Origin: Pelagibacteraceae bacterium
GTDB taxonomy: Bacteria; Pseudomonadota; Alphaproteobacteria; Pelagibacterales; Pelagibacteraceae
DNA: 48,219 bases
Assembly: GCA_017640245.1 (NCBI GenBank)
Contig: JAGFWA010000001.1
Coordinates: 1 to 48,219 of the forward strand
Direction: 5' to 3'
Position numbers and translations under genes: made by a program. Under the pieces are notes generated by a model. The model searched no databases. It saw only the letters and a program-made list of their open reading frames with translations, and was not told the origin of the DNA. The stretch's first letter is position 1; every line of letters begins with the position of its first letter. Below are positions 20,621 to 48,219 of the stretch, piece after piece.

Positions 20621-20633
20621 TATGAAAAATCTA

Positions 20634-20663
20634 TTGAATCTTTGATAACAAGTTTTATATTAT
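20634..20663 (+). promoter_or_regulatory. Candidate promoter of the tmRNA gene
   Basis: TTGAAT (20634-20639) with TATATT (20656-20661, 16-bp spacing) or TATTAT (20658-20663, 18-bp spacing). Transcription would then begin around 20668-20670, at the GTTGG-TTTT-CCAAC hairpin that opens the acceptor piece. It lies in the divergent gap between thyX and ssrA. The match is moderate in AT-rich DNA, but its position suits the RNA well. Confidence 0.45.
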
Positions 20664-20664
20664 T

Positions 20665-20924
20665 ACTGTTGGTTTTCCAACTATGACGATAAACGAATTT
20701 CGTAATAAACATTGCGGACGTGGGGGCAGTACCCACCACCTCCACCATTTACAACTTATGGGGGTGAATCAGAATCGACGAGTGTCTAAAGGCTGTTCTT
20801 TCGTTCGAGATAGTTCCGACGTAACGGGCTAATTATAAATGCAAATGATAAATTTGCTCTTGCTGCTTAATTAACTTGTTAATTAAATAAGCACGGTCTG
20901 GGGCACCGGGTAACAGAACGCCCC
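20665..20924 (+). ncRNA. ssrA: Circularly permuted two-piece tmRNA (ssrA)
   Basis: Rescues stalled ribosomes by acting as tRNA and mRNA. The gene is permuted, as in alphaproteobacteria. The acceptor piece comes first and ends in CACCTCCACCA at 20747, with a T-arm GTGGG-GGCAGTA-CCCAC just before it. About 12 bases (20748-20759) of intervening sequence follow. The coding piece then opens at 20760 with GGGGGTGAATCAGAATCGACG. GGGGGTG (20760-20766) pairs with CACCTCC over seven base pairs, rebuilding the acceptor stem, and AGTGT (20781-20785) can pair with ACATT (20709-20713). The tag frame runs GCA at 20841 to TAA at 20868 and encodes ANDKFALAA. The 3' end contains CACCGGGTAACAGAACGCCCC, with GGGGC/GCCCC (20900-20904, 20920-20924) followed by T residues that could also serve as terminator. 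The outer ends are approximate. Confidence 0.93.
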
Positions 20925-20928
20925 TTTT
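20903..20928 (+). repeat. Copy 1 of a degenerate direct repeat: tmRNA 3' end
   Basis: The last bases of the tmRNA coding piece (GCACCGGGTAACAGAACGCC and following) recur in degenerate form at 21391-21416, 488 bp downstream. By eye, 19 of 26 positions agree and every mismatch is a transition. The two copies flank the MOSC-domain gene. Confidence 0.5.
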
Positions 20929-29532: not shown

Positions 29533-34093
<4,561 letters not shown>

Positions 34094-34142: not shown

Positions 34143-35069
34143 TTAAGCGTTTACAACAAGTCCTTTTTGAACAGGGGAGATTTTCCTTATATTTAATGAA
34201 GAGTTTTGATTTTTAATTGTAGTGAAATTATTTTTATCAGACAAAACTTGTCTTAAAAAATCATTTGTCAACGAATGGCCGCCACGTATACAATTTATCG
34301 AACCGATAACTCTCTTTCCGACAAGCATAAAGTCTCCGACTAAATCTAAAATTTTATGATTTACAAATTCATTTTTAGATCTAAGACCTTTTCCATTAAA
34401 AACTTCATTTCCTTTTACCACAACTGCATTTTCCAATGATCCGCCTTTAGCAAGACCAAGATCTTTAATTTTCTCAATATCTTCATATAAACAAAAAGTT
34501 CTTGCTGAATAAATATTTTCCAGGTCTTTCTCTTGGAAGCTTGCTTTATTTGACTGGGTTTTTATTAATGAATTTTTATAACCCAATGTAAATTTTACAG
34601 TGAAAAAATTATCTGACGGCTCGATACTTATATATTTATCGTTTTGCTTAAGCTCTATTTTTTTTGTAATTTTTATAAATTCTCTTTTTTTATTTAAGAT
34701 TTTTAAACCAGAGTCTTTGATTCCATGAACGAAATCTTTTGCTGATCCGTCCATTGCTGGAATTTCCTGACCATCTACATTTACAACCACATTATCAACG
34801 CCGCAAATATAAAAAGCTGCCATTAAATGTTCTACGGTTGAAATATTTACTCCAAATTTATTTTGAATTTTTGTACAAAGCCTTGCAGAACAAACATTTT
34901 TAAAGTTTGCAATAATTTCGTTATTTTTATCTAAATCAATTCTTTGAAAGATCACGCCTGTATCGGATTTAGCGGGTAATAAGGTTAATTTTATCTCTTT
35001 GCCTGAATGCAAACCTATGCCAGTAAAGTTTACTGTGCTTTTAACCGTTTTTTGATTTTCATCCCACAT
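34143..35069 (-). CDS. lpxC: UDP-3-O-acyl-N-acetylglucosamine deacetylase
   Basis: Zinc hydrolase performing the committed step of lipid A synthesis. The zinc ligands are His81 in STVEHLMAAF, His238 and Asp242 in NHKILDLVGD. The catalytic His265 is in RGGHSLTN. The MDGSAKDF block is at 106-113. The length of 308 is normal. Its presence shows that the cell makes lipopolysaccharide. It directly follows ftsA across 72 bp, where ftsZ would be expected in relatives. Confidence 0.97.
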   Translation of the reverse strand: MWDENQKTVKSTVNFTGIGLHSGKEIKLTLLPAKSDTGVIFQRIDLDKNNEIIANFKNVCSARLCTKIQNKFGVNISTVEHLMAAFYICGVDNVVVNVDGQEIPAMDGSAKDFVHGIKDSGLKILNKKREFIKITKKIELKQNDKYISIEPSDNFFTVKFTLGYKNSLIKTQSNKASFQEKDLENIYSARTFCLYEDIEKIKDLGLAKGGSLENAVVVKGNEVFNGKGLRSKNEFVNHKILDLVGDFMLVGKRVIGSINCIRGGHSLTNDFLRQVLSDKNNFTTIKNQNSSLNIRKISPVQKGLVVNA

Positions 35070-35141
35070 CTCATGTTTTTATATAAAAATTAAAATTTAA
35101 CTTGAAAACAACTAATATTACAAAAAACTACTGGATTGATT

Positions 35142-36341
35142 TTAAAAAAAACGTGAAAAAAAACCCGAAATTACTGACTTTTTTTTATTGGTAAATGGGA
35201 TAGCCTCTTTATGCCAACCTTTAAGAATTAATTCCGCTGCACCTGACAAAGCTGAAAAATCATCAAGCGGGAACCATTTAGATAAAATCTTATTTTGTTC
35301 TATATTATTTAAAGAATTTTTAAATAGATCTCCTAAATTATTGAAAACACATTTGTCTTCAAAAAAAACGTAAATGAACGGAACTTTATTGTCTAGATAA
35401 TTTAAATTTTTATTTTTATTAAAAATATAATTTATCATTTCTTCTATTCTTGCATCAATAATGCTTTTTAAATGATTAACGCTTAACTTCGTAAAATCTG
35501 ATTTTATAAAAAATTTCTTATCTAGATGTTTGACTCTTTCTTTTTGTAGATTGTTAAAATTTAATTCATTAAATATTAATCTAATTTCATCTTTTTTTAA
35601 TGAGCATAGCTGAGCAATATCCCTATAGATTGAATTTGTTCCAAAGGGAAAAGTTTTTAGAAAAGTTAAAGAAGAGTCTTCATAAAGAGAAACGCTGCTC
35701 AACTCGCTATCAAAATGAATTATTGCAAAATTTTTTAAATCTTTATTTTTATTTAGTAAATCTAATCCAGAAACAAGGGGTTTGCTAATGATTCTATCAA
35801 CTTTTAAATCACTGTTATCAAAAAGAGCATTAATATTTTTTAAATTATTTTTCGGAAGAGAAAGAAATGTCATGTGCAAACTTAGATGGTCACCAAATAT
35901 ATTTAAAGGAATTTTTTCTTGTTTTGTTTTATCCAAGATAAAATTTGAATTTAGTATATGTAATACTGAATTTTTTTCTTGGTTTTTCATAACAGAACTT
36001 TTAGCTTCGTTTAAAATATAATCTAAATCACTTTTTTCAACTTTGGATCCGTTAAGTTGCTTAAACCCAGTTATATTTGTACAGAGAATTTCTTTTTGAT
36101 TAATTACGACAGATATCTTCCTAAAAATTTTATCAACTTCTTTTTCTATTTCTTCCAAATCTTTACTTATAAGTTTACCAGCATTTTTAATATCTAAAAT
36201 TTTTCCTGCTTGAATTTCTATATTGTTAGATATTTTTTTACTTAAAATCTCACAGTCCAATTTGTTGTTTAATCGAAAAACTGCATACTTAATTTGTTTA
36301 TCATCTATTTCTGCTATCAATTTTTCTTGGTTGGCTTCCAT
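35142..36341 (-). CDS. ftsA: Divergent FtsA-like cell division protein
   Basis: FtsA is the actin-like protein that tethers FtsZ to the membrane. This 399-residue product occupies the ftsA slot after ftsQ, and local patterns match: FPFGTNSIYRDIA at about 231-243 (family G-G-x-x-I-T-x-D-I-A), SGAAELIL at 366-373, and an amphipathic C-terminus ISGFFSRFF that would serve as membrane anchor. The nucleotide motifs are eroded. The phosphate 1 region reads AEIDDKQI without the usual Gly, the phosphate 2 region near 206-218 reads AIIHFDSELSSVS without a GGG pattern, and the adenosine motif near 322-335 reads FIYVFFEDKCVFNN without GG. ATP binding is therefore doubtful. The next gene downstream is lpxC, not ftsZ. 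Confidence is lower for function than for homology. Confidence 0.75.
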   Translation of the reverse strand: MEANQEKLIAEIDDKQIKYAVFRLNNKLDCEILSKKISNNIEIQAGKILDIKNAGKLISKDLEEIEKEVDKIFRKISVVINQKEILCTNITGFKQLNGSKVEKSDLDYILNEAKSSVMKNQEKNSVLHILNSNFILDKTKQEKIPLNIFGDHLSLHMTFLSLPKNNLKNINALFDNSDLKVDRIISKPLVSGLDLLNKNKDLKNFAIIHFDSELSSVSLYEDSSLTFLKTFPFGTNSIYRDIAQLCSLKKDEIRLIFNELNFNNLQKERVKHLDKKFFIKSDFTKLSVNHLKSIIDARIEEMINYIFNKNKNLNYLDNKVPFIYVFFEDKCVFNNLGDLFKNSLNNIEQNKILSKWFPLDDFSALSGAAELILKGWHKEAIPFTNKKKSVISGFFSRFF

Positions 36342-37022
36342 CTATTTTATTATTAGTTGTCCATTAACTCTAAAATCAAAAACTCTGAATTTTTTAAAAT
36401 TTTCTGTTTCATAAATAGATAAAAATTTTTTAAGTGATTTTTCATAATTTGTAGAAGGTAATTTGATTAATTTACCATCCTTTAAAATAATATCCCATCT
36501 TTTAATATCAAAATAGTTAAAATATTTTATTAATTCTATTTCAAAACCAGCGGCTTCAAGGGATGGGTAAAAAGTAAAAAAAATTTTGTCTGCATTTTCT
36601 CCAAATACTAACGGTAAATCATTAAACTGTTTTTTATTGTAGTTATTTATAATTTTCCCATGATCCGTCAAAATATATTCCTTTTGATTTTTTTCATCGA
36701 CAAAAATCCCAATTATTTTAAACTCTTTTATAGTTATTTTTATTTTATCTGGATAAATCTTTTTTACTTTGATTTCTTTAACTAGTTCTAAGTTGTCGAT
36801 TAACTTTCTGAATTGTTTTTGATTAGTAAAAATTATATTTTTTTCTTTGAGTGGATTAAATTTTTCTTCTATCTCTTTTCTATCTGAATTTTGAATACCT
36901 TCAATTTCTATTTTTTTTATTTTGAAAAAAGAACTGACTAAGTTTTCTTTTGAGTCAAAGTTATAGGTGGTAAGAACAATTAGTAAAAATAACCATAAAA
37001 AAAAGCTTTTTTTTCTTTTCAT
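36342..37022 (-). CDS. ftsQ: FtsQ/DivIB division protein
   Basis: Bitopic inner membrane protein that links early and late divisome proteins. One membrane segment lies at about residues 5-22 after a basic KRKKS start. A POTRA domain follows (IKKIEIEGIQNSDRKEIEEK, about 32-51), then the FtsQ beta domain (IYPDKIKITIKEFKIIG near 84-100). At 226 residues it is shorter than typical alphaproteobacterial FtsQ, mainly through a missing N-terminal cytoplasmic region. It overlaps ddl by 4 bp and abuts ftsA. Confidence 0.87.
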   Translation of the reverse strand: MKRKKSFFLWLFLLIVLTTYNFDSKENLVSSFFKIKKIEIEGIQNSDRKEIEEKFNPLKEKNIIFTNQKQFRKLIDNLELVKEIKVKKIYPDKIKITIKEFKIIGIFVDEKNQKEYILTDHGKIINNYNKKQFNDLPLVFGENADKIFFTFYPSLEAAGFEIELIKYFNYFDIKRWDIILKDGKLIKLPSTNYEKSLKKFLSIYETENFKKFRVFDFRVNGQLIIK

Positions 37023-37945
37023 CTATTCAAACTAGAATCATTGACCATCCATTTTACCAATTTCACAAATGAAATTTTGGAATATTTGGCTATCTCAGGA
37101 ACAAGTGACAAACTAGTCATTCCTGGTTGAGTATTTGCTTCTAAAGCATAAAACTGATTTTTATAAAACCTAAAGTCGCATCTTACAATGCCCTTGCATT
37201 TTAAGATTTTATTAATTTTTTCCGAAATTTTTAACACTTCTTTGTACTTATTTTTCGGAATTTCCGCAGGCATAATATGTAAAGTTTTGGCTGATTTTTT
37301 ATATTTTGCATCATAATCATAAAATTCTCTCCTCGGTCTTAATTCTATGGCTCCTATTGACCTGCCACCCATAAGAGCAACCTGAATTTCCTTTCCCGGA
37401 ATAAATGTTTCAAATATTAAATTTTTATATTTTTTCTTCAGCTTATTAAAATGATTTTTTAATGAACTTAAAGTTTTACATATTTTTACTCCAACGCTTG
37501 ATCCTTCGTCATTTGGTTTTATAACCACAGGAAATTTAAGTTTATTTTTTTTAATTTTACTTTTTAAATTTGCGTCAGAATAATCTCTTTCACTTAAAAA
37601 AAAATAATTTGGCGTTCTAATCCTATGTTTAATAAACAGTTGTTTGGAAAGAAACTTATTCATTGCAATCATTGAAGATAAAACGCCAGAATGAGTATAG
37701 GGTATTCCTAGATATTCGAAAAAACTTTGAATCTGACCATCTTCTCCATTTTTTCCATGAAGAGCATTAAATATTACATCTGCTTTATGCTTCTTTATAT
37801 CGTTTAAAGATGAAAATTTTGGATCAAATTTTTTAACACGATAACCTATTTTTTTTAAAGCCTTTATGCATGATTTTCCAGTTTCCAAACTCACTTCTCT
37901 TTCTTTAGAAGTGCCACCTAAAATAACAAGAATTTTTTTAGACAA
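37019..37945 (-). CDS. ddl: D-alanine--D-alanine ligase
   Basis: ATP-grasp ligase producing the D-Ala-D-Ala dipeptide for peptidoglycan. The N-terminal GGTSKEREVSLETGKS (about 10-25) binds D-Ala. NALHGKNGEDGQIQ follows near 59-72, and KPNDEGSSVGV near 145-155 is the ATP-grasp loop. The metal-binding RCDFRFY and EANTQPGMT blocks lie near the C-terminus. The length of 308 is normal. It lies 2 bp after murB and overlaps ftsQ by 4 bp. Confidence 0.97.
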   Translation of the reverse strand: MSKKILVILGGTSKEREVSLETGKSCIKALKKIGYRVKKFDPKFSSLNDIKKHKADVIFNALHGKNGEDGQIQSFFEYLGIPYTHSGVLSSMIAMNKFLSKQLFIKHRIRTPNYFFLSERDYSDANLKSKIKKNKLKFPVVIKPNDEGSSVGVKICKTLSSLKNHFNKLKKKYKNLIFETFIPGKEIQVALMGGRSIGAIELRPRREFYDYDAKYKKSAKTLHIMPAEIPKNKYKEVLKISEKINKILKCKGIVRCDFRFYKNQFYALEANTQPGMTSLSLVPEIAKYSKISFVKLVKWMVNDSSLNR

Positions 37946-37947
37946 TT

Positions 37948-38820
37948 TTATTTCTCTCCAATTATTTTTATTTCTAACTCTAAATTTATACCTGTTTTTA
38001 AAAACACTTTTTTTCTAACTTCTTCAATTAAATTTTCGATATCTGATGAGGTGGCACTACCATTGTTTAAAAAAAAGTTACTGTGTTGTGATGACATTCG
38101 AGCTCCTCCTATATTTAAATTTGAACAATTTGACGATCTTATAAGCTTCCATGCCTTTTTATCTTGAGGATTTTTAAATGTGCTACCACAAGTTTTAATT
38201 TTGTTTGGTTGACTTTCTTTCTTTTGATTTATTAATTTCATTTGTCTACTTTCTATTTCTCTTTTATTTAATGCCCCCCCTTCAAATACTGCGCTTAAAA
38301 TTATTAAATCCTTTGGTAAATTATTTCCTCTGTAAAAAAATTTTACATCGTCTTTATTAAATGATTTTAAATTTCCGCTAAAATTTATACCTTTTAGTGA
38401 AAAAAAAATTTGAGATATATCGTAGTCATAACAGCCACTATTCATTGTTATTGCACCACCAATACTGCCTGGTATACAGGACAAAAATTCAAATCCTGTT
38501 ATGGATTTTTGTTTAGCAAAATCAGAAAGTTTTTTATCCAAAGTAGCTGCTCCTACTTCAATTTTGTTATTATTTAATAACTTGATGTAATTAAAACCGG
38601 CTCCAAGTTTAATTATAACTCCGTTAAAACCAGAATCTCGAAAAAGAGTATTTGAACCAGCTCCTAGAATATGAATTTTTTTATTTTTTTTATTATATTT
38701 TTCTAGAAATTTTTTAAGATCTAATGCAGATTTTGGTTTAAAGAATATTTTTGCAAATCCTCCCAGGCCAAACCAGCTATATTTTGAAAGTTTTTCATTT
38801 TTATAAACTAAATTGTCCAT
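37948..38820 (-). CDS. murB: UDP-N-acetylenolpyruvoylglucosamine reductase
   Basis: FAD-dependent reductase that forms UDP-MurNAc. FAD-contacting blocks are visible: LGAGSNTLFRDSGFNG (about 52-67) and CIPGSIGGAITMNSGCYD (about 111-128). The substrate-site CGSTFKNP supplies the catalytic Ser, and the C-terminal ELEIKIIG the catalytic Glu. The length of 290 is typical of type II MurB. The gap to murC is one base and to ddl two. Confidence 0.97.
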   Translation of the reverse strand: MDNLVYKNEKLSKYSWFGLGGFAKIFFKPKSALDLKKFLEKYNKKNKKIHILGAGSNTLFRDSGFNGVIIKLGAGFNYIKLLNNNKIEVGAATLDKKLSDFAKQKSITGFEFLSCIPGSIGGAITMNSGCYDYDISQIFFSLKGINFSGNLKSFNKDDVKFFYRGNNLPKDLIILSAVFEGGALNKREIESRQMKLINQKKESQPNKIKTCGSTFKNPQDKKAWKLIRSSNCSNLNIGGARMSSQHSNFFLNNGSATSSDIENLIEEVRKKVFLKTGINLELEIKIIGEK

Positions 38821-38821
38821 T

Positions 38822-40216
38822 TTATAAATTCATCTCTCTTATCCATTTTGAAATAGATCCGGCCCCCAAACATATTACTATTTCGTTACTTAATAAATTT
38901 TTTATAAAAAACTTTCTCAAATCGATCTCATTTTTAATCGTTATTACCTGAACTTTAGAATTTCTGGATATTAATTTAGCAAAATTCATTTCGTCATATT
39001 GTTTGTCAATTTTTTCTCCAGCAGAGTACACTGGAGACAAAATCACTAAATCGGAATTTTTAAAGGATGAAGCAAATTCATTTTTTAATAATTTTAATCT
39101 TGAATATCTATGTGGTTGAAAAACAGCAATTATCTTTCTTTTCTTATCAGAAGTTATTTTAATGCTTTTTAATACAGATTGAATTTCTGTTGGATGGTGA
39201 GCATAGTCATCGAAAAATTCTCTTCCATTAATTTTAAAAACTTTTGTTAATCTCCTTTGAATGCCGCTAAATTTTTTCAATGAAGTTTTTATAACATTTA
39301 TGCTGATTCCTATATGCAAACAAAGAGCTATAGAGGCTGCTGAGTTTAAAACATTGTGTGAACCAATTAAATTTAATTTTATTTTTTTTATAGTAATTTT
39401 TTTTACTCCTGGCAGTGATATCCTTAGGTCAAAGATTGAATAATTTTTTTTATAAATTGCATTAAAAACTTGAAAATTTGCTCGTGTAGAAAATCCATAA
39501 GTTAAAAAGTTTTTCTTATTAATTTTTGGAATTATTTTTTTCAACTGATAGTCATCTATGCAAACAAATGCTTTTCCGGCAGCTGGAGTTTTATTTAAAA
39601 ATTTAATAAAAGAGTTTTTTAAATTATTAAAATTTTTATAAAAATCAATATGCTCTTTGTCAATATTTGTTACCACTGAATAATTAATTGGCAAATTTAA
39701 GAAACTGCCATCAGATTCATCCGCCTCTAAAACCGCCCAATCGCTTTTGCCTAATCTTGCGTTGCTATTTAAAGAATTAATTACTCCTCCGTTTATAATT
39801 GTAGGATCTAATTTAGCCTCTGATAATATTTTTGAAATTAAAGATGTGGTAGTAGTTTTTCCATGAGAGCCTGTGATTACAATATTTTTTTTTAATGAAA
39901 CTACGTGCGCTAACATTTCTCCTCTTTTCAAAATGGTTAGTTTTCTCTTTTTTGCCGCTATAATTTCTGGATTATTGTTCTTAATGGCTGATGATTTAAC
40001 AACAATTGTGCAATTGTTAATATTTTTTTTGTTATGAGAAGAAAATATTTTGATACCAATTTTTTTACATCTTTCGACATTTTTACTTCTCGATATATCG
40101 CTACCTTGAATTTTAAATCCTAAAGTATTCATTACTTGAGCTAGGCCACTCATTCCTATGCCTCCGATTCCAATAAAATGAATTCTCTCGTTTAATCCTA
40201 TTGCAGTTTTATACAT
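38822..40216 (-). CDS. murC: UDP-N-acetylmuramate--L-alanine ligase
   Basis: Adds L-Ala to UDP-MurNAc. The N-terminal Rossmann-like GIGGIGMSGLAQVM is at about 16-29. The ATP-binding loop GSHGKTTTT lies at 116-124, with EADESDGSF near 184-192. The C-terminal domain has DDYAHHPTEI near 345, as in all MurC. The length of 464 is normal. It overlaps murG by 8 bp. Confidence 0.98.
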   Translation of the reverse strand: MYKTAIGLNERIHFIGIGGIGMSGLAQVMNTLGFKIQGSDISRSKNVERCKKIGIKIFSSHNKKNINNCTIVVKSSAIKNNNPEIIAAKKRKLTILKRGEMLAHVVSLKKNIVITGSHGKTTTTSLISKILSEAKLDPTIINGGVINSLNSNARLGKSDWAVLEADESDGSFLNLPINYSVVTNIDKEHIDFYKNFNNLKNSFIKFLNKTPAAGKAFVCIDDYQLKKIIPKINKKNFLTYGFSTRANFQVFNAIYKKNYSIFDLRISLPGVKKITIKKIKLNLIGSHNVLNSAASIALCLHIGISINVIKTSLKKFSGIQRRLTKVFKINGREFFDDYAHHPTEIQSVLKSIKITSDKKRKIIAVFQPHRYSRLKLLKNEFASSFKNSDLVILSPVYSAGEKIDKQYDEMNFAKLISRNSKVQVITIKNEIDLRKFFIKNLLSNEIVICLGAGSISKWIREMNL

Positions 40217-41297
40217 TTAAAGTTGTTTTAATTAATTTATGAATTTTTGAAATTGCATCTTTGTCTGAATGTTCGCTCATTTTTTTTTTTAATGAAAGCA
40301 ATTTTTTCCTATCTTTATTTAAATCTTTAAGAATTTTAAAGAGTTTATCATGAATAAATTTTTCCTCTAACAAAAAACAATATCCTTTGTTTTTGAAATA
40401 AAATGCATTTTCAAATTGATGATTGTCAGTTGAAGAAGGCAAGGGTATTGCGACAAACGGAATTCTTAAATTTATTAATTCGGCTATAGACGAAGCTCCA
40501 GATCTCGTGATCGCCAAGTCTGTTTTTTGATAATATTCAAATAAATCGTCAGAAAAAGAAAATAATTTAAAATCTATATTGAGTTTTGTATAGGTTTTTT
40601 TTATTTCATTTCTATCTACATCTGAACATTGTTGATATATTTTAAATTTAATATTGTTTTTACAACAATTTTTAATAACAATTGGTAGCACCTCAGAAAA
40701 AATTTTAGCCGATTGACTTCCTCCAATTATTAAAATTGACAGTTCTTTTTTATCTAATTCGAAATCATTTTTTTCTAAATTAAAAATTTGACTCCTTAAT
40801 AAATAGCCTGAAAAAAAAACCTTGTGTTTATATTTAGAATCTATACCGCTAATACTATTAGTGGAAACTAATATTTTTTTTACGAATGGCAGAAGAAATT
40901 TATTTGCTCTTCCTAAAATTAAATTATTTTCATAAATTAGTACTGGCACTCTAAGAAAACAAGCGGCCAAACAAACTGGAAAAGATGAGTACCCGCCCAT
41001 ACCAATGACTATTTTAGGTTTTAGTTTGATAATCATGGCAAAAGAATAAATTGTAGAAAAAATAATATTTACAACTGCAGTAAAAATTTTGAGTATATTT
41101 TTATTAAAAATTGTATTTGAATTAATTATTTTAATATTAATATTGTCAAGATTTTTCAAATATTTAAGTCCTCTTCTATCCGTAGTGATTTCAATGTCAT
41201 ATTCTTCTTTTAAAAAATCTGCCAAACTAAGTGAGGGAAAAATATGACCCCCTGTGCCTCCAGTAGCTATAATAATTTTTTTATTGTTTTGGCTCAT
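40209..41297 (-). CDS. murG: UDP-GlcNAc:lipid I N-acetylglucosaminyltransferase MurG
   Basis: GT-B glycosyltransferase that makes lipid II on the cytoplasmic face of the membrane. The first Gly-rich loop GGTGGHIFPSLSLA is at about 13-26. The second domain shows IIGGSQSAKIF near 190 and the donor-site ITRSGASSIAEL near 265, with a PLPSSTDNHQ motif close behind. The length of 362 is normal. The start adjoins the ftsW stop with no gap, and the end overlaps murC. Confidence 0.97.
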   Translation of the reverse strand: MSQNNKKIIIATGGTGGHIFPSLSLADFLKEEYDIEITTDRRGLKYLKNLDNINIKIINSNTIFNKNILKIFTAVVNIIFSTIYSFAMIIKLKPKIVIGMGGYSSFPVCLAACFLRVPVLIYENNLILGRANKFLLPFVKKILVSTNSISGIDSKYKHKVFFSGYLLRSQIFNLEKNDFELDKKELSILIIGGSQSAKIFSEVLPIVIKNCCKNNIKFKIYQQCSDVDRNEIKKTYTKLNIDFKLFSFSDDLFEYYQKTDLAITRSGASSIAELINLRIPFVAIPLPSSTDNHQFENAFYFKNKGYCFLLEEKFIHDKLFKILKDLNKDRKKLLSLKKKMSEHSDKDAISKIHKLIKTTLNV

Positions 41298-42437
41298 TTA
41301 GTTTTTTACTCCCAAAGATGTATAATTTAGTATGACTCCAGCAAGAACTCCGCTGGATAATAAAGATGAACCACCATAACTTAAAAACGGAAGTGTCATT
41401 CCAGTTGTTGGTAACAAGTTTGCATTAACACCAACGTGAATAAAGGTTTGAAAAACTAATAATGAACTTAAACCACAAAGAGAAAGCTTATAAAGATTAT
41501 TTGATGAATTTATAATTTTTTTAACTATCCTGAATGTAATAAAAAGAAAAATTGAAATAACAAATATTGAAACTATTGAACCAAATTCTTCACTTATAAC
41601 CGCAATGATATAATCGGTGTGTGCTTCGGGTACACTCTCCTTTAATATACCTTCGCCCATGCCCTCCCCTTTAAGACCTCCTTGTTTAATAGCCTCAATA
41701 GCTTTTTGAGATTGAGAATTATCTGTTTTGGTTGGATCGAAGAAAGATGTGATTCTCGTAATAATATAACTAAATTTTTCTGGAGCCAGGTATAGTAAAA
41801 TGAGAAATAGAAAAATAACAAAAATAAAAAGTAAGAAAAGAAATAAAATGTTTACACCTGAAACAAAAATTAAAGAAATCCAAGTACAAATTAATAGAAT
41901 AGATTGTCCTAGATCTGGTTGTAGAATAAGTAATAAAACAATAGCTGATAATAAGATAAAAGAAATAAAATATGATAAATTCATATTTTTTATCCATTTT
42001 AAACCAATAATTTGTGCAACAATCAGAACAAAAAATGGTTTGGTAAATTCAATTGGTTGAAAACGTAAGCTAAAAAAATTTAACCATCTTTTTGCACCTT
42101 TAATTTCAACTCCAACAAAAGGTACAAGCATTAATATTACAAAAAAAATTAAAAAAATTGGTAGCAGGCTTTTGTTTACTAAATCAGTATTAAGTGCTGA
42201 TATAAAAATCATTATAGAGAAAGAAATAGTTGCATATAAAAGGTGTTTTTGAAAAAAAAAATAATATTCTTTACTTAATCTTTCATCGGCCAAAAAAGAT
42301 GTGGAAGAGAAAGAAAAAAAAGATCCAAGAATAAATAATAAAAAAAAACTCACTAAGATTTGCTTGTCTACATTTCTCCAATAGTTTTTAATTTTAAAAA
42401 AACTAAATTTTGATTTTTCAGAAATACTTTCTTGCAT
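41298..42437 (-). CDS. ftsW: FtsW, SEDS-family peptidoglycan glycosyltransferase of the divisome
   Basis: Multi-pass membrane polymerase that works with FtsI in septal wall synthesis. There are about ten membrane segments in 379 residues. SEDS blocks are GAKRWLNFFSLRFQPIEFTK near 114-133, QPDLGQSILLICTW near 175, PEAHTDYIIAVISEEFG near 270, and LPTTGMTLPFLSYGGSSL near the C-terminus. It overlaps murD by 20 bp and adjoins murG. The murD-ftsW-murG order identifies it as FtsW rather than RodA. Confidence 0.97.
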   Translation of the reverse strand: MQESISEKSKFSFFKIKNYWRNVDKQILVSFFLLFILGSFFSFSSTSFLADERLSKEYYFFFQKHLLYATISFSIMIFISALNTDLVNKSLLPIFLIFFVILMLVPFVGVEIKGAKRWLNFFSLRFQPIEFTKPFFVLIVAQIIGLKWIKNMNLSYFISFILLSAIVLLLILQPDLGQSILLICTWISLIFVSGVNILFLFLLFIFVIFLFLILLYLAPEKFSYIITRITSFFDPTKTDNSQSQKAIEAIKQGGLKGEGMGEGILKESVPEAHTDYIIAVISEEFGSIVSIFVISIFLFITFRIVKKIINSSNNLYKLSLCGLSSLLVFQTFIHVGVNANLLPTTGMTLPFLSYGGSSLLSSGVLAGVILNYTSLGVKN

Positions 42438-43731
42438 AATTTATAATTAATTTTTTAAACTGATTTCCTCTTTCTTCAAAATTATTGAACTGATCATAGG
42501 AAGCGCTTGCCGGACTAAAAATAATAAAAATTCTTTCTTTCTTTTTTTGAAGATTAATAAATTTTAATTCTTGATAAATATGTTTTACCGTATTTTTTAA
42601 ATTTAATGTTTCTTTATAATCGATCTTTCCCCTTAATTGTTTCTTAAAAAAACTCCTGTCTTTTCCAATTATGAAAGCCTTAATGATATTTTTCTTTATA
42701 CGATTTAAAAAAAATCTATCTCCATCTTTTTTAAGTCCTCCAAGAATCCATATTATGTTTTTGTAATTTGTTAAACAGCTTTTAGAGGCTTCGAAACTAG
42801 TCGCTTTAGAATCATTTATAAATGATATTTTATTTTTTTTTAAAAATACTTCCTGTCTATGTGGTAAACCCTTAAACTTCTTCAGTGATGAAAAAAAAAA
42901 CTTATCAGCAATCTTAAATTTTTTCATCAAGAGATAGATGAATGATAAATTTTCTACATTATTGCTTGATTTTAAATAATTATTTTTAATTTTGTTCTTT
43001 ATAAATTTCTTAATATTTTTTTTAACAACAAGCAGCGATGCTTTAAATTTTCTTCTTTTGTAAAGATTAACAATTCTTTGATCGTCAAAAACATATGCAA
43101 AATCATTTGTGTTCTGGTATGAAAAAATTTTAAATTTAGCGTTAATGTAATTCTTCATTGTTCCATGCCAGTCTAGATGGTCTTTGGATATATTTAACAA
43201 AATTGCATAGTTTGGTCTTAGATATTTTGAATATTCCAGTTGAAATGAAGACATTTCAATAACTGCTATAGTATTTCTTTGAAAATTGTAATCTAAGATA
43301 GGCTTGCCAATATTTCCTACTGCAACTATGTTATGACCCGAACTTTCCAAAACTCTTTTAATGATGCTGCAAGTTGTGGATTTTCCATTGGTTCCCGTAA
43401 CAATTATAGATTTAAAAAATTTCTTTGTTAAAAAAAATAAGTCTATATCTGTAATAACTTTGTTTTGGTTTTTAAGAAGAGTTTTTTTATATTTAGATTT
43501 CCTTAAACTAATCCCTGGACTAAGTATGATAAAATCAGCTTCATTAATTTTTTTTTTTAATATTCTGGAGTTTTCCTTTATTTTAAATTTTTTCCGTAAA
43601 TTACGGTTGTCATCCCATAAAAAAATATTTTTGGTTCTAGATTTTTTTAAAAATTGACAAACTGACCGGCCTGTTAAACCAAGTCCATAAATTAAAAAAT
43701 TTTTACTTTTTAAAATATTTTGTGACAGCAT
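42418..43731 (-). CDS. murD: UDP-N-acetylmuramoylalanine--D-glutamate ligase
   Basis: Adds D-Glu to UDP-MurNAc-L-Ala. The N-terminal GLGLTGRSVCQFL is at about 16-28. The ATP loop GTNGKST is at 113-119, and the NISKDHLDWH block follows near 181-190. The C-terminal FSPASASYDQFNNFEERG is the family end motif. The length of 437 is normal. It lies one base from mraY and overlaps ftsW by 20 bp. The protein is very lysine-rich, in line with the strong AT bias of this end of the window. Confidence 0.96.
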   Translation of the reverse strand: MLSQNILKSKNFLIYGLGLTGRSVCQFLKKSRTKNIFLWDDNRNLRKKFKIKENSRILKKKINEADFIILSPGISLRKSKYKKTLLKNQNKVITDIDLFFLTKKFFKSIIVTGTNGKSTTCSIIKRVLESSGHNIVAVGNIGKPILDYNFQRNTIAVIEMSSFQLEYSKYLRPNYAILLNISKDHLDWHGTMKNYINAKFKIFSYQNTNDFAYVFDDQRIVNLYKRRKFKASLLVVKKNIKKFIKNKIKNNYLKSSNNVENLSFIYLLMKKFKIADKFFFSSLKKFKGLPHRQEVFLKKNKISFINDSKATSFEASKSCLTNYKNIIWILGGLKKDGDRFFLNRIKKNIIKAFIIGKDRSFFKKQLRGKIDYKETLNLKNTVKHIYQELKFINLQKKKERIFIIFSPASASYDQFNNFEERGNQFKKLIINYARKYF

Positions 43732-43732
43732 T

Positions 43733-44818
43733 TTATCTAAGTTTTAAAGTAGCAAGACCAATCAATGCTAGAATTATTGATATAATCCAAAATCTAATAA
43801 CGACGGTAGATTCTGACCATCCTTTTTTTTCAAAATGGTGGTGAATTGGAGCCATTTTAAAAACTCTTTTTCCTGTAAGTTTAAAAGAAATTACCTGAAT
43901 AATTACTGACGCCGTTTCTAAAACAAACAGTCCTCCAACAATTGCAAGAACGATTTCATGTTTTGCTATAATTGCTACTGACGCAAGAGAACCGCCTAAA
44001 GATAAAGATCCTGTATCGCCCATAAATATTTTAGCCGGCGGTGCGTTGTACCATAAAAAACCTAGACATGAGCCAACAATAGAACCACAGAAAATTGATA
44101 GCTCACCAACATTAGATATGTATTGAATTTGGAGATAGTCAGAAAAAATTGTATTTCCAACTACATAACAAATTAAACTAAAGGATAATGCAACCAACAT
44201 TACCGGTACAGTAGCCAAGCCATCCAGTCCATCAGTTAAATTTACTGCGTTAGATGATCCAATTATTATAAAAATGCCAAACGGAATAAAAAACAAGCCC
44301 ATCTGTAAAACAAGATTTTTAAAAAAAGGAAAGTATAAATTTAGGATATTTTCGTGATCAGAAAAATAAATTAAAATTAAAATAGCAACTAAAGCAATTA
44401 ATAATTGTCCAAAAAGTTTTAATTTAGCATTAATTCCAGAAGAATTTTTAAATTTAATTTTTAAATAATCGTCTGCAAAACCTAGCAACCCAAGGCTGGT
44501 ACAGACAAAAAGTACTATCCATATGTAAATATTTTTTAAGTCCGCCCACATGAGAGTGGAAACAATAATTCCAATTAAGATCATTAACCCTCCCATGGTA
44601 GGTGTTCCCGTTTTTTTTATAATATGATCAATGGGTCCATCTTGCCTAATTGGCCCGGTTATTTGTTTTTTTGAAAAATATTTTATTAACGGATTCCCAA
44701 TTAAAAAAACAATGGTTAAAGATGTGACAACTGATAATCCAATCCTAAATGTAATGTATTTAAACACATTTAAAAAAGAAAAGGTATCAACCAAGGAAGT
44801 TAAAAAACTATAAAGCAT
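43733..44818 (-). CDS. mraY: Phospho-N-acetylmuramoyl-pentapeptide transferase MraY
   Basis: Integral membrane enzyme that transfers phospho-MurNAc-pentapeptide to undecaprenyl phosphate, making lipid I. There are about ten membrane segments over 361 residues. Conserved blocks are KTGTPTMGGLMIL near 50-62, the catalytic DD pair in GFADDYLK near 113-120, NAVNLTDGLDGLA near 190-202, and MAPIHHHFEKKGW near 322-334. It follows the murE-murF fusion gene by one base and precedes murD by one. Confidence 0.98.
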   Translation of the reverse strand: MLYSFLTSLVDTFSFLNVFKYITFRIGLSVVTSLTIVFLIGNPLIKYFSKKQITGPIRQDGPIDHIIKKTGTPTMGGLMILIGIIVSTLMWADLKNIYIWIVLFVCTSLGLLGFADDYLKIKFKNSSGINAKLKLFGQLLIALVAILILIYFSDHENILNLYFPFFKNLVLQMGLFFIPFGIFIIIGSSNAVNLTDGLDGLATVPVMLVALSFSLICYVVGNTIFSDYLQIQYISNVGELSIFCGSIVGSCLGFLWYNAPPAKIFMGDTGSLSLGGSLASVAIIAKHEIVLAIVGGLFVLETASVIIQVISFKLTGKRVFKMAPIHHHFEKKGWSESTVVIRFWIISIILALIGLATLKLR

Positions 44819-44819
44819 T

Positions 44820-47651
44820 TTAATTACTCCTTAAAAATCTTTTTGATATTTCATGTAATTTCATAGCATTAGAACCTTTGATCATTAAAAAATCGCCATT
44901 TTTTAAAATTTGAGAAATTCTATTATCGAAGGATTTAAAATTCTTAACTATTGCTCCTCTTTTACTTTTTCTCAAAAGTTTATATGTTTCAGTTGCTTTG
45001 TCTCCGTAAACAAATGTTTTATCAATATCACTATTGTTTATAAATTTTGAGATTTTTTTGTGGTAAATGTATGAATTTCTGCCTAATTCCAACATATCCC
45101 CAAAAAGAAAGTATTTTCTTTTCCCTTTCTTTTGAAGATTTGAAAAATTTTCTATTGCAGATCTTACTGACAAAGGATTTGCATTGTAACTTTCATCAAT
45201 TAAAAAAAACTTTTTATAAAATTTATTCACTTTGTTAATTTTTCCTCTGCCCTCTAGAAAGTTTAAAGTTTTAAAAAAATTATTTATTTTTTTTAGATTT
45301 AGATTTAGTTCGCTTAAAACAGCTACGCAGCAAAGTATATTCATTATATAGTTGCGGTTAATATTATTAATTTTAAGTAAAATATTTTTATTATTGACAG
45401 ATAATTTTAATAATAAATATCCTCTATTTTTTTTAATATTTATAAATCTAACATGCGCTTGTTTTGAATAACCAAAGGATTTTATTTTTATATTGTTTTT
45501 TTCAGCAATTTTTTTAAAATAATGAAAAAATTTATCATCCCTATTTAAAATAACGACTCCTCCTCTTTGGATGTTATAAATAATTTCACTTTTTGCCTTA
45601 GCTATATCTCGAATATTTTTAAAATTTTCTAAATGAGCTTCAGAAATATTAGTTATTATTGCTATATCTGGTTTAACTAATGACGAAAGATTAAAGATTT
45701 CTTTAAATTTACTCATTCCAATTTCAAAAACTCCAAAATCATCCTGAGGCGCAATGTTGCAAATACTCAAAGGAACTCCGTACTGATTGTTGTATGACTG
45801 TGGTGAAAAATAACTATTCGAATATTTTTTCAGTAAATTTCCTAACATAGTTTTTACAGTTGTTTTTCCGGAACTTCCTGTAACAGCTATAAATTTGGCT
45901 GAAGATAGATCGCGTTTATTTTGAGCTAAAATTTTTAAAAACTTCATAGTATTTTTCACTTTAATAAAATTTGATTTTTTTTTAATTTTTTTAGATATCA
46001 CACAATAACTTGCACCACCTTTTATTGCTTCGTTTAAAAAGTTATGACCATCATTTTTCTTTCCTTTAATTGCAACAAATAAATTATTACTTTTAATTTT
46101 TTTAGAATTGATTGAAACATTGTTGAAAAAATATTTTTTTTTATCTTTTAGAACTTTTTTTAAAATTGCTCCATTATATTGAAGATTATTTTTTTTCTTA
46201 TCAAAAGAGTTGTGGATATTAAAATTTTTTACAATTTTTTTATCACTTAAAAAAATTTTTCTTTTACCTAAGTCTTGATAGGCTTCATGCCCTTTTCCAG
46301 CAATTAAAATTATTTCATATGGATCTGAGTTTTTTAGAGCAGTATGAATTGCTTTTTTCCTATTTGGTACTTCATTAACTTCAAAACCCCTAAGGCCTTT
46401 GATTATATCATTTCTTATTTTTTTTGGATTTTCATTTCTTGGATTATCATCGGTCACATATATTTTATTACAAAGATTTTTTGTAATTTTTCCCATTAAT
46501 CTTCTTTTTCCTTTATCTCTTTCTCCTCCACAGCCAAAAATAATAGTAATTTTTTTGCGAAAATGTTCTTGTAAAGACAAGATAGCATTTTTTAATGCGT
46601 CCGGTGTATGGGCATAATCTAAAAATATTTTTGATTTGTTGGGCAAATTTCTTATTAATTCTAATCTTCCATCTACACTATGAATTTTGTTAATTTTTTT
46701 AAAAATATTTTTAATATTTAAACCACAAGTTTTGCAGGCCAAAATAGCCATTAATAAATTTTTTATTTGAATAGAACCATATAAATTAATTTTTAAATGA
46801 TAAATTTTTTTATTATATTTAATTTCTAATAATTGAAAGTTTTTGAAAATTTTGTGATTCAAAACTTTAAAAAGATTACCTCTATGTCCAATGGTATAAA
46901 TTTTTAATTTCTTTTTTTTCTGTATGTTTTTAAGTGTACCGTACTGCTTAATATCAGAATCAGTAATTATCGTAGATCTTTTTTTCAAAATATTTTTAAA
47001 TAGTATTAATTTTGAATTAAGATAGTTCTTCATGCTTTTATGGTAGTCTAGGTGGTCATGACTTAAATTTGTAAAAATTCCAGTTTTTATATTTAAAAAA
47101 TTTAATCTACTTTGATGTAATCCGTGACTTGACGCTTCAATTATAGCGTTGTCTATACCGGTTTTCTTCATTTCGTTTAAATCTCTATTTAGGTTTAATG
47201 AATCCAAGGTTGTAAGTTCTCTTTTTTTTAAAGACTTATTTTTTTTAAAACCAAGTGTTCCTAACGCACCAACCTTTTTTTTTTCCAATAAAAAAATCTG
47301 ATAAAAAAAATCTGATACAGATGTTTTTCCATTTGTGCCCGTTACAGCAACTATGTTTTTCGGTTTGTTTTTATAATACTTGGTAGAAAGTTCAGCTAAT
47401 TTTTTTCTAGTATCTTTAACTTTTATTAATATTATATTTTTATATTTTTTTTTTACAGAACCTGAATAAATTACAGCTTTGGCACCTTTGGAAATTGCCT
47501 CTTCTATATAATTGTTGGCGTTAAATTTGTTACCCTTAATAGAAATAAATAAATCACCTTTTTTTACGTTTCTGCTATCTAATGATAACCCCCTAATTTT
47601 TAGTTTGCCAACATCGGGGCTTAAGTTATTAATCAGATTTTTTAACAACAT
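44820..47651 (-). CDS. murE-murF: MurE-MurF fusion: UDP-MurNAc-tripeptide synthetase and UDP-MurNAc-pentapeptide ligase
   Basis: One uninterrupted 943-residue reading frame carries both enzymes. Residues 1 to about 480 are MurE: LSLDSRNVKKGDLF near the start, ATP loop TGTNGKTSV at 104-112, and DNPRNENP at 402-409, the signature of enzymes that add meso-diaminopimelate. Residues from about 488 are MurF: VSINSKKIKSNNLFVAIKG (512-530), ATP loop TGSSGKTTVK at 591-600, and DESYNANPLS in the third domain. The linker around 478-492 is short. The fusion would couple addition of DAP with addition of D-Ala-D-Ala. MurE and MurF are normally separate neighbouring genes of about 480 and 460 residues. Its start overlaps ftsI by 23 bp. 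Confidence 0.95.
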   Translation of the reverse strand: MLLKNLINNLSPDVGKLKIRGLSLDSRNVKKGDLFISIKGNKFNANNYIEEAISKGAKAVIYSGSVKKKYKNIILIKVKDTRKKLAELSTKYYKNKPKNIVAVTGTNGKTSVSDFFYQIFLLEKKKVGALGTLGFKKNKSLKKRELTTLDSLNLNRDLNEMKKTGIDNAIIEASSHGLHQSRLNFLNIKTGIFTNLSHDHLDYHKSMKNYLNSKLILFKNILKKRSTIITDSDIKQYGTLKNIQKKKKLKIYTIGHRGNLFKVLNHKIFKNFQLLEIKYNKKIYHLKINLYGSIQIKNLLMAILACKTCGLNIKNIFKKINKIHSVDGRLELIRNLPNKSKIFLDYAHTPDALKNAILSLQEHFRKKITIIFGCGGERDKGKRRLMGKITKNLCNKIYVTDDNPRNENPKKIRNDIIKGLRGFEVNEVPNRKKAIHTALKNSDPYEIILIAGKGHEAYQDLGKRKIFLSDKKIVKNFNIHNSFDKKKNNLQYNGAILKKVLKDKKKYFFNNVSINSKKIKSNNLFVAIKGKKNDGHNFLNEAIKGGASYCVISKKIKKKSNFIKVKNTMKFLKILAQNKRDLSSAKFIAVTGSSGKTTVKTMLGNLLKKYSNSYFSPQSYNNQYGVPLSICNIAPQDDFGVFEIGMSKFKEIFNLSSLVKPDIAIITNISEAHLENFKNIRDIAKAKSEIIYNIQRGGVVILNRDDKFFHYFKKIAEKNNIKIKSFGYSKQAHVRFINIKKNRGYLLLKLSVNNKNILLKINNINRNYIMNILCCVAVLSELNLNLKKINNFFKTLNFLEGRGKINKVNKFYKKFFLIDESYNANPLSVRSAIENFSNLQKKGKRKYFLFGDMLELGRNSYIYHKKISKFINNSDIDKTFVYGDKATETYKLLRKSKRGAIVKNFKSFDNRISQILKNGDFLMIKGSNAMKLHEISKRFLRSN

Positions 47652-48219
47652 GGTTGTTATAAAAATCGTTTTTATTTATGGCTAAAATAGGACCAATTTT
47701 TTTTATAATTTTGCCAACTGTGTAGACAGAATTCCAACCAGAGTCATTTCTGCGAATTCCCGATATCTTTTTTCCTTTATAATTATAAACAATTTGAGGA
47801 GCAGAGTGCGGTTCATCTATTAAAACCAATAAAATATATTTCGGACTTACTGACGGAAAAACTGAGATAAATGATGTCAATTTTTTATTAGTATATTGTC
47901 CGTCAATATTTTTTTTTGCTGTACCAGTTTTGCCAGCAACATAATATCCATCTACTTCAGCCAAAGTGGCTGTTCCTTTATCACTGGTCACAACAGCCCT
48001 TAAAATTGAATTGATTTTTTTACTTGTCTCAAATGTAATGATTCTTGTTTTATTCAAATTTGAATTTTTGTCTTTAATCAATGTAGGATTAATAATAAAT
48101 CCGCCATTTAAAATAGATGCATATGCTGTGGCCGCTTGTAAAGGAGTCGTTGTAATACCGTGTCCATAAGACACTGTTTCAAGCTTACATTTATTCCAGA
48201 CAAAATGTAAAGGAGATCC
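47629..48219 (-). CDS. ftsI: FtsI (PBP3) division transpeptidase, C-terminal part, cut by the window edge
   Basis: Class B penicillin-binding protein that cross-links septal peptidoglycan. Only the C-terminal 196 residues or so are inside the window. The frame stays open past the GTG at 48174 to the last base, and the extra residues (GSPLHFVWNKCKLETVS) run smoothly into SYGHGITTTPLQAA, a conserved FtsI block, so 48174 is not the real start. The KTG box is present as VAGKTGTAKK, followed by the family FISVFPS and VLIDEP segments. The serine SxxK and SxN motifs lie upstream, outside the window. It overlaps the murE-murF gene by 23 bp. Confidence 0.95.
   Translation of the reverse strand, partial: GSPLHFVWNKCKLETVSYGHGITTTPLQAATAYASILNGGFIINPTLIKDKNSNLNKTRIITFETSKKINSILRAVVTSDKGTATLAEVDGYYVAGKTGTAKKNIDGQYTNKKLTSFISVFPSVSPKYILLVLIDEPHSAPQIVYNYKGKKISGIRRNDSGWNSVYTVGKIIKKIGPILAINKNDFYNNHVVKKSD

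Follow-up and report, generated by a model that had tools for sequence, protein, structure and literature searches.

The division and cell wall (dcw) cluster of the Alphaproteobacteria includes the gene order ddl-ftsQ-ftsA-ftsZ-lpxC-bamD-recN-ligA, and few gene neighbourhoods in bacteria are as conserved as ftsA-ftsZ. FtsA is an actin-family protein that tethers FtsZ to the membrane (structures 1e4f, 4a2a, 7q6d, 7q6f and 7q6i), and its domain 2B carries the site for the FtsZ tail, as in 4a2a. In the mraZ-rsmH-(ftsA)-ftsZ clusters of the Mollicute type, ftsZ lies in one short operon with mraZ and the whole cluster is reduced. SAR11 bacteria (Pelagibacterales) rank among the most abundant of marine bacteria, and of all cell groups on Earth; to our knowledge their division has been little studied.

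Here we describe the dcw cluster of a SAR11 draft genome of 905,828 bases (91 contigs, 75.8% complete), in which the window, the whole stretch of 48,219 nucleotides that was analysed, is contig C1. SAR11 has the same genes in the same order as other Alphaproteobacteria from rsmH through ftsA, followed by lpxC-bamD-ligA, but ftsZ is located between mraZ and rsmH rather than between ftsA and lpxC, and recN is missing after bamD. The association of ftsZ with mraZ resembles that of the Mollicutes, from which SAR11 differs in having kept the full dcw cluster with only ftsZ displaced. Our search of the open-access literature found no account of the position of ftsZ or of the erosion of FtsA in SAR11.

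ftsA is followed directly by lpxC

The cluster occupies the minus strand of the window. It begins with the C-terminal part of ftsI (47629..48219), which is cut by the contig end, and a single 943-aa frame in which murE and murF are fused (44820..47651; two Mur ligase M and C domains). These are followed by mraY (43733..44818), murD (42418..43731), ftsW (41298..42437), murG (40209..41297), murC (38822..40216), murB (37948..38820) and ddl (37019..37945), assigned from their order in relatives, and by ftsQ (36342..37022), which matches the Pfam families POTRA_1 and FtsQ_DivIB_C. Next comes ftsA (35142..36341), encoding a 399-aa protein with a predicted actin fold and a C-terminal membrane helix, KKKSVISGFFSRFF. 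Only 72 AT-rich base pairs (35070..35141) separate it from lpxC (34143..35069; 308 aa, PF03331, E 6e-95), after which bamD (33242..34093) and, directly, ligA (31222..33249) were assigned from the order in other Alphaproteobacteria. This junction is the former place of ftsZ and, as the initial annotation had pointed out, it contains neither the gene nor any reading frame. The spacing is similar in 122 related genomes (median 63 bp, range -25 to 77), and ftsA is likewise followed by lpxC, with no ftsZ between them, in ten closed genomes.

Several other features of this region vary amongst relatives. The murE-murF fusion is found in the genus of the window and in most of the genomes examined from the largest SAR11 genus; members of the second SAR11 family and of other SAR11 genera have the two genes as separate frames. 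Most Alphaproteobacteria carry recN between bamD and ligA; SAR11 has no recN there (window junction 33242-33249). Two closed genomes from a single SAR11 genus showed no murG between ftsW and murC, where there is a gap of only about 40 bp (L162 11686-11725, L165 11716-11756). Elsewhere in the window, positions 20630-20927 encode a tmRNA of the permuted two-piece alphaproteobacterial type, which is ordinary for the class.

ftsZ is the second gene of its own dcw cluster

A search of the whole genome for the tubulin/FtsZ family returned one match, on contig C41, consistent with the earlier observation that nothing in the window encodes an FtsZ. This single-copy ftsZ (L032:2230-3684, minus strand) encodes a protein with the GTPase domain (PF00091, E 7e-48), the C-terminal domain (PF12327, E 2e-33) and, as EIPAFLRNQKF, the conserved C-terminal peptide to which FtsA and other tethers bind. 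The gene order of the contig is ampD-rnpB-mraZ-ftsZ-rsmH-ftsL-ftsI, in which only the N-terminal part of ftsI (L032:3-887) is present before the cut at the contig start. The interval from ampD to mraZ (L032:3681-4145, minus strand), just upstream of the relocated ftsZ, is taken up by the RNase P RNA gene rnpB (L032 4300-4651). The end of mraZ shares 4 nt (ATGA) with the start of ftsZ and includes, within its last codons, the sequence AAGGAGG. FtsZ is therefore probably the second protein made from the mraZ transcript and coupled to MraZ.

The sequence of C1 stops within the C-terminal part of ftsI and that of C41 starts inside the same gene, which indicates that these contigs, unjoined in the draft, each hold one half of a single dcw cluster split within ftsI, approximately 250 bp of which is missing as judged, like the link itself, from relatives. 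In the relatives, which include ten closed single-contig genomes, the cluster is contiguous and reads mraZ-ftsZ-rsmH-ftsL-ftsI-murE-murF-mraY-murD-ftsW-murG-murC-murB-ddl-ftsQ-ftsA-lpxC-bamD-ligA. Apart from the inserted ftsZ, the familiar series from mraZ-rsmH-ftsL-ftsI through the mur genes to ftsQ-ftsA is preserved, which makes the change a shift of ftsZ, within its own cluster, from the final position to the second. The initial annotation held that a normal copy elsewhere in the genome would reduce the finding to a simple relocation; a relocation it is, but one that did not take the gene to an unrelated place.

The relocation is order-wide and shared with a second order

The closest named relatives of this FtsZ are from uncultured Pelagibacteraceae (SAR11), and mraZ-ftsZ was found at all 23 such loci. 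Other alphaproteobacterial loci with upstream context carried ftsA-ftsZ, and the loci compared support the premise of the initial annotation that ftsA-ftsZ-lpxC is the usual order in the class. In the order of the window, exactly one FtsZ was detected in 133 of 147 genomes, the mraZ and ftsZ matches lay 266-608 bp apart in every genome that has both (126/126), and, in place of the usual adjacency, ftsZ and lpxC were separated by 15.6-17.6 kb wherever both were on one contig (86/86). The relocation is order-wide and not a quirk of this one genome.

For comparison across the class we used a sample of 115 alphaproteobacterial genomes representing about as many families, 72 of which (approximately 70 families) have mraZ and ftsZ on one contig. 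The two genes are 10-25 kb apart in 65 of these 72 genomes and adjacent in only three: the window's genome, another SAR11 genome and a member (G178) of a second order with genomes of 0.9-2.0 Mb. In this second order, ampD-mraZ-ftsZ was observed at 20 of 20 ftsZ loci, rsmH comes next in the same direction at 19 of them, and the dcw cluster ends in ftsA-lpxC-bamD-recN, so that bamD-recN is retained. At the remaining locus (L297, genome G304), rsmH lies beside ftsZ in the reverse orientation, where the contig ends; this is possibly an assembly joint. The class sample also contains a 0.9-Mb genome rated 100% complete (G238) that has mraZ, adjoined by neither rsmH nor ftsZ, and gave no FtsZ match; this organism may divide without FtsZ.

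One further genome (G200), which we take to be HIMB59, the former SAR11 subclade V, is like SAR11 that of a small AT-rich marine alphaproteobacterium, but differs in having rsmH immediately after mraZ, with ftsZ at a distance of 865 kb; on these grounds we rejected HIMB59 as a member of the relocated clade. This arrangement agrees with the argument that HIMB59 is not SAR11 (PMC3815206), a paper in which ftsZ, ftsA and the cluster are unmentioned. In our nine-gene tree the second order and SAR11 form a clade (support 99), and HIMB59, represented by three genes only and on a very long branch, is placed within that clade with a support of 90. This position may reflect attraction, or the relocation may have been reversed there. 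One relocation in the common ancestor of SAR11 and the second order is the simplest reading, although the place of HIMB59 is unsure.

SAR11 FtsA lacks nucleotide-binding motifs and retains a predicted FtsA fold

The initial annotation missed the more surprising part of this locus, namely that the ftsA left behind is degenerate and, in related SAR11, is without its whole second domain. SAR11 FtsA shares with the known proteins its place in the cluster, its domain order, the fold of its full-length copies, the SHS2/1C domain and the C-terminal amphipathic helix. It differs from them in that the phosphate-2 motif is gone from all full-length SAR11 copies, all three nucleotide motifs (DxG, DxGGGT and GG) are gone in the genus of the window, and domain 2 is wholly absent from a short form, mini-FtsA. 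In a reference set of 45 ordinary FtsAs, nearly all from Alphaproteobacteria, DxG is kept in 45, DxGxG in 43 and GG in 45, compared with DxGxG in none of 78 full-length SAR11 FtsAs; in the second SAR11 family, DxG and GG have also disappeared from all 35 copies. The window FtsA has no phosphate-1, phosphate-2 or adenosine motif, the corresponding sites reading EIDDKQI, HFDSELSS and FFEDKC, and its sole Pfam match is SHS2_FTSA (PF02491, E 1.8e-8).

The AlphaFold model of this protein (pLDDT 80, pTM 0.79) found its best structure match in 7q6f (E 3.7e-21, TM 0.76), and domain 2 (2A/2B) is predicted by fold to be present, with low model confidence at residues 264-279. The model thus indicates a protein that has kept the FtsA fold and not the nucleotide motifs. 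A C-terminal amphipathic helix is present in mini and full copies, with a mean hydrophobic moment of 0.57 in mini-FtsA against 0.40 for shuffled sequences; that of the window FtsA is weaker (0.48). Pairwise dN/dS values of 0.14-0.29 for mini-FtsA, 0.09-0.23 for full-length copies and 0.17 for the window FtsA against its nearest relative argue that SAR11 ftsA genes are under purifying selection and are not debris.

In the second order, FtsA largely keeps its nucleotide motifs (DIGTDK, DIGAKTSK and TGGAS). Since that order shares the relocation, the relocation appears to have come first and the decay of FtsA, confined to SAR11, to have followed.

Mini-FtsA appears to have lost domain 2

FtsA lengths at 122 SAR11 loci are bimodal, with 44 proteins of 174-244 aa (mostly 232-236), 78 of 368-410 aa and none between. 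All 44 mini-FtsAs belong to one genus; the FtsA of G046 has 369 aa, and G047 and G053 carry mini-FtsA. In profile comparison, mini-FtsA aligns to residues 1-200 of the full-length SAR11 protein (E 1.4e-29), and against the PDB it matches FtsA residues 54-194 only. Run over the mini-FtsA genomes, the full-length FtsA profile matched residues 1-200 and 355-399, both within the mini gene, and detected no separate domain 2 outside it. We therefore rejected a split ftsA with domain 2 encoded elsewhere in the genomes searched. As judged from these alignments, mini-FtsA is a protein from which domain 2 appears to have been deleted, leaving domain 1 (1A and 1C) together with the amphipathic helix at the C-terminus (GFFEKFFQLFS).

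The FtsZ tail peptide is kept in every complete SAR11 copy and reads LEIPAFLRRQ in mini-FtsA genomes, which implies that some partner for the tail must persist. The alternative tether SepF was rejected as a replacement, as no PF04472 protein was detected in any of 12 SAR11 genomes in a search that found the controls. On two-gene trees, mini-FtsA needs three changes of state and a single loss has a p-AU of 0.106, so that a single origin is neither shown nor rejected. The mini-FtsA of one closed genome is only 174 aa long, and the profile there crosses several in-frame stops (L171 16770-16938), perhaps representing further decay or an odd start.

DISCUSSION

The shift of ftsZ in SAR11 is a real, fixed and clade-wide relocation, modest by itself. 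Our joint reading, to which we assign a probability of roughly 0.88, is that ftsZ was transposed within the dcw cluster in a common ancestor and that SAR11 FtsA then eroded while still under selection. In the ancestor of the Pelagibacterales and one other small-genome order, ftsZ would have left the ftsA-lpxC interval and been inserted between mraZ and rsmH. FtsZ would since have been made as a second product of the mraZ transcript, coupled to MraZ, and its output would follow the mraZ promoter. FtsA would have stayed with ftsQ and lpxC as a selected protein and, in SAR11, would then have lost its nucleotide pocket, after which, in part of the largest genus, domain 2 would have gone entirely and only a 1A/1C module with its membrane anchor would have remained. 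The sequence from relocation through pocket loss to domain loss is supported by the distribution of these states amongst genomes and implies no causal link between the steps. The structural features are well supported by the comparisons, and from them we infer the functional consequences: SAR11 FtsA is most likely an ATP-independent membrane and divisome adaptor between the ring and the septal machinery, and in mini-FtsA strains either a different protein or a new surface on domain 1 would hold the FtsZ tail. Pelagibacter is without CtrA, the controller of ftsZ and ftsA in Caulobacter (PMC2877005); this fits a rewired control of ftsZ and proves nothing.

The initial annotation left it that ftsZ had either moved or been lost, and only the former stands. 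That the cell divides without FtsZ has nothing in its favour beyond the absence of the gene from the window, and it is refuted by the one intact copy on C41, complete with both domains and the EIPAFLR tail peptide, as well as by the single FtsZ in most genomes of the order. It could be rescued only if C41 were a contaminating contig, which is unlikely given the 89-92% identity of its FtsZ to those of the same genus and the matching gene order; the probability of loss is accordingly negligible. We attach equally little weight to a misassembly or binning artefact, the former being a possibility raised in the initial annotation: the draft is fragmented and incomplete and the window ends inside ftsI, but the related and closed genomes agree on the junction, and the same junction with the relocated ftsZ recurs in closed single-contig genomes and some 126 independent assemblies, the closed genomes by themselves refuting misassembly.

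The remaining alternatives concern how the relocation arose and what became of FtsA. Independent, convergent relocations in SAR11 and the second order, favoured by benefits of expressing ftsZ first, would explain why HIMB59, placed between them in the small tree, is without the arrangement. We consider convergence unlikely, since the insertion point and the flanking neighbours (ampD, mraZ and rsmH) are identical in both orders, no other case occurs among the 72 genomes of the class sample, and the two orders form a clade, the doubtful place of HIMB59 aside. Slightly less likely again is that SAR11 FtsA is a drifting relic without a role and mini-FtsA a decaying remnant. The graded loss, of motifs and then of domain 2, points in this direction, as do the stops upstream of the 174-aa frame in L171, but the low dN/dS of mini-FtsA pairs, the open frame in 44 of 44 mini-FtsAs and the strong conservation of the C-terminal amphipathic helix and of residues argue against it.

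With transposition in a common ancestor followed by erosion of a selected FtsA as the preferred reading, the ftsA-ftsZ pair would have been broken once, in a nameable clade, and a graded dismantling of FtsA follows the split. The chances are evenly balanced that in a large part of the Candidatus Pelagibacter-like SAR11 division proceeds with an FtsA from which the actin half has gone, one that would be selected and membrane-anchored and would bind neither ATP nor the FtsZ tail in the known way; another tether or a new surface of domain 1 would then serve the tail, and FtsA polymerisation would be dispensable. In the dispute over where SAR11 belongs, the relocation may also serve as a rare marker that is independent of composition, uniting SAR11 with the second order and leaving HIMB59 outside. 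Finally, FtsAs that occur naturally, are under selection and have no nucleotide pocket or no domain 2 would provide a test of which parts of the protein are needed (ATP binding, polymerisation, FtsZ binding and 1C signalling), and the occurrence of relocation and stepwise FtsA dismantling in the same lineage offers a clear experimental handle.
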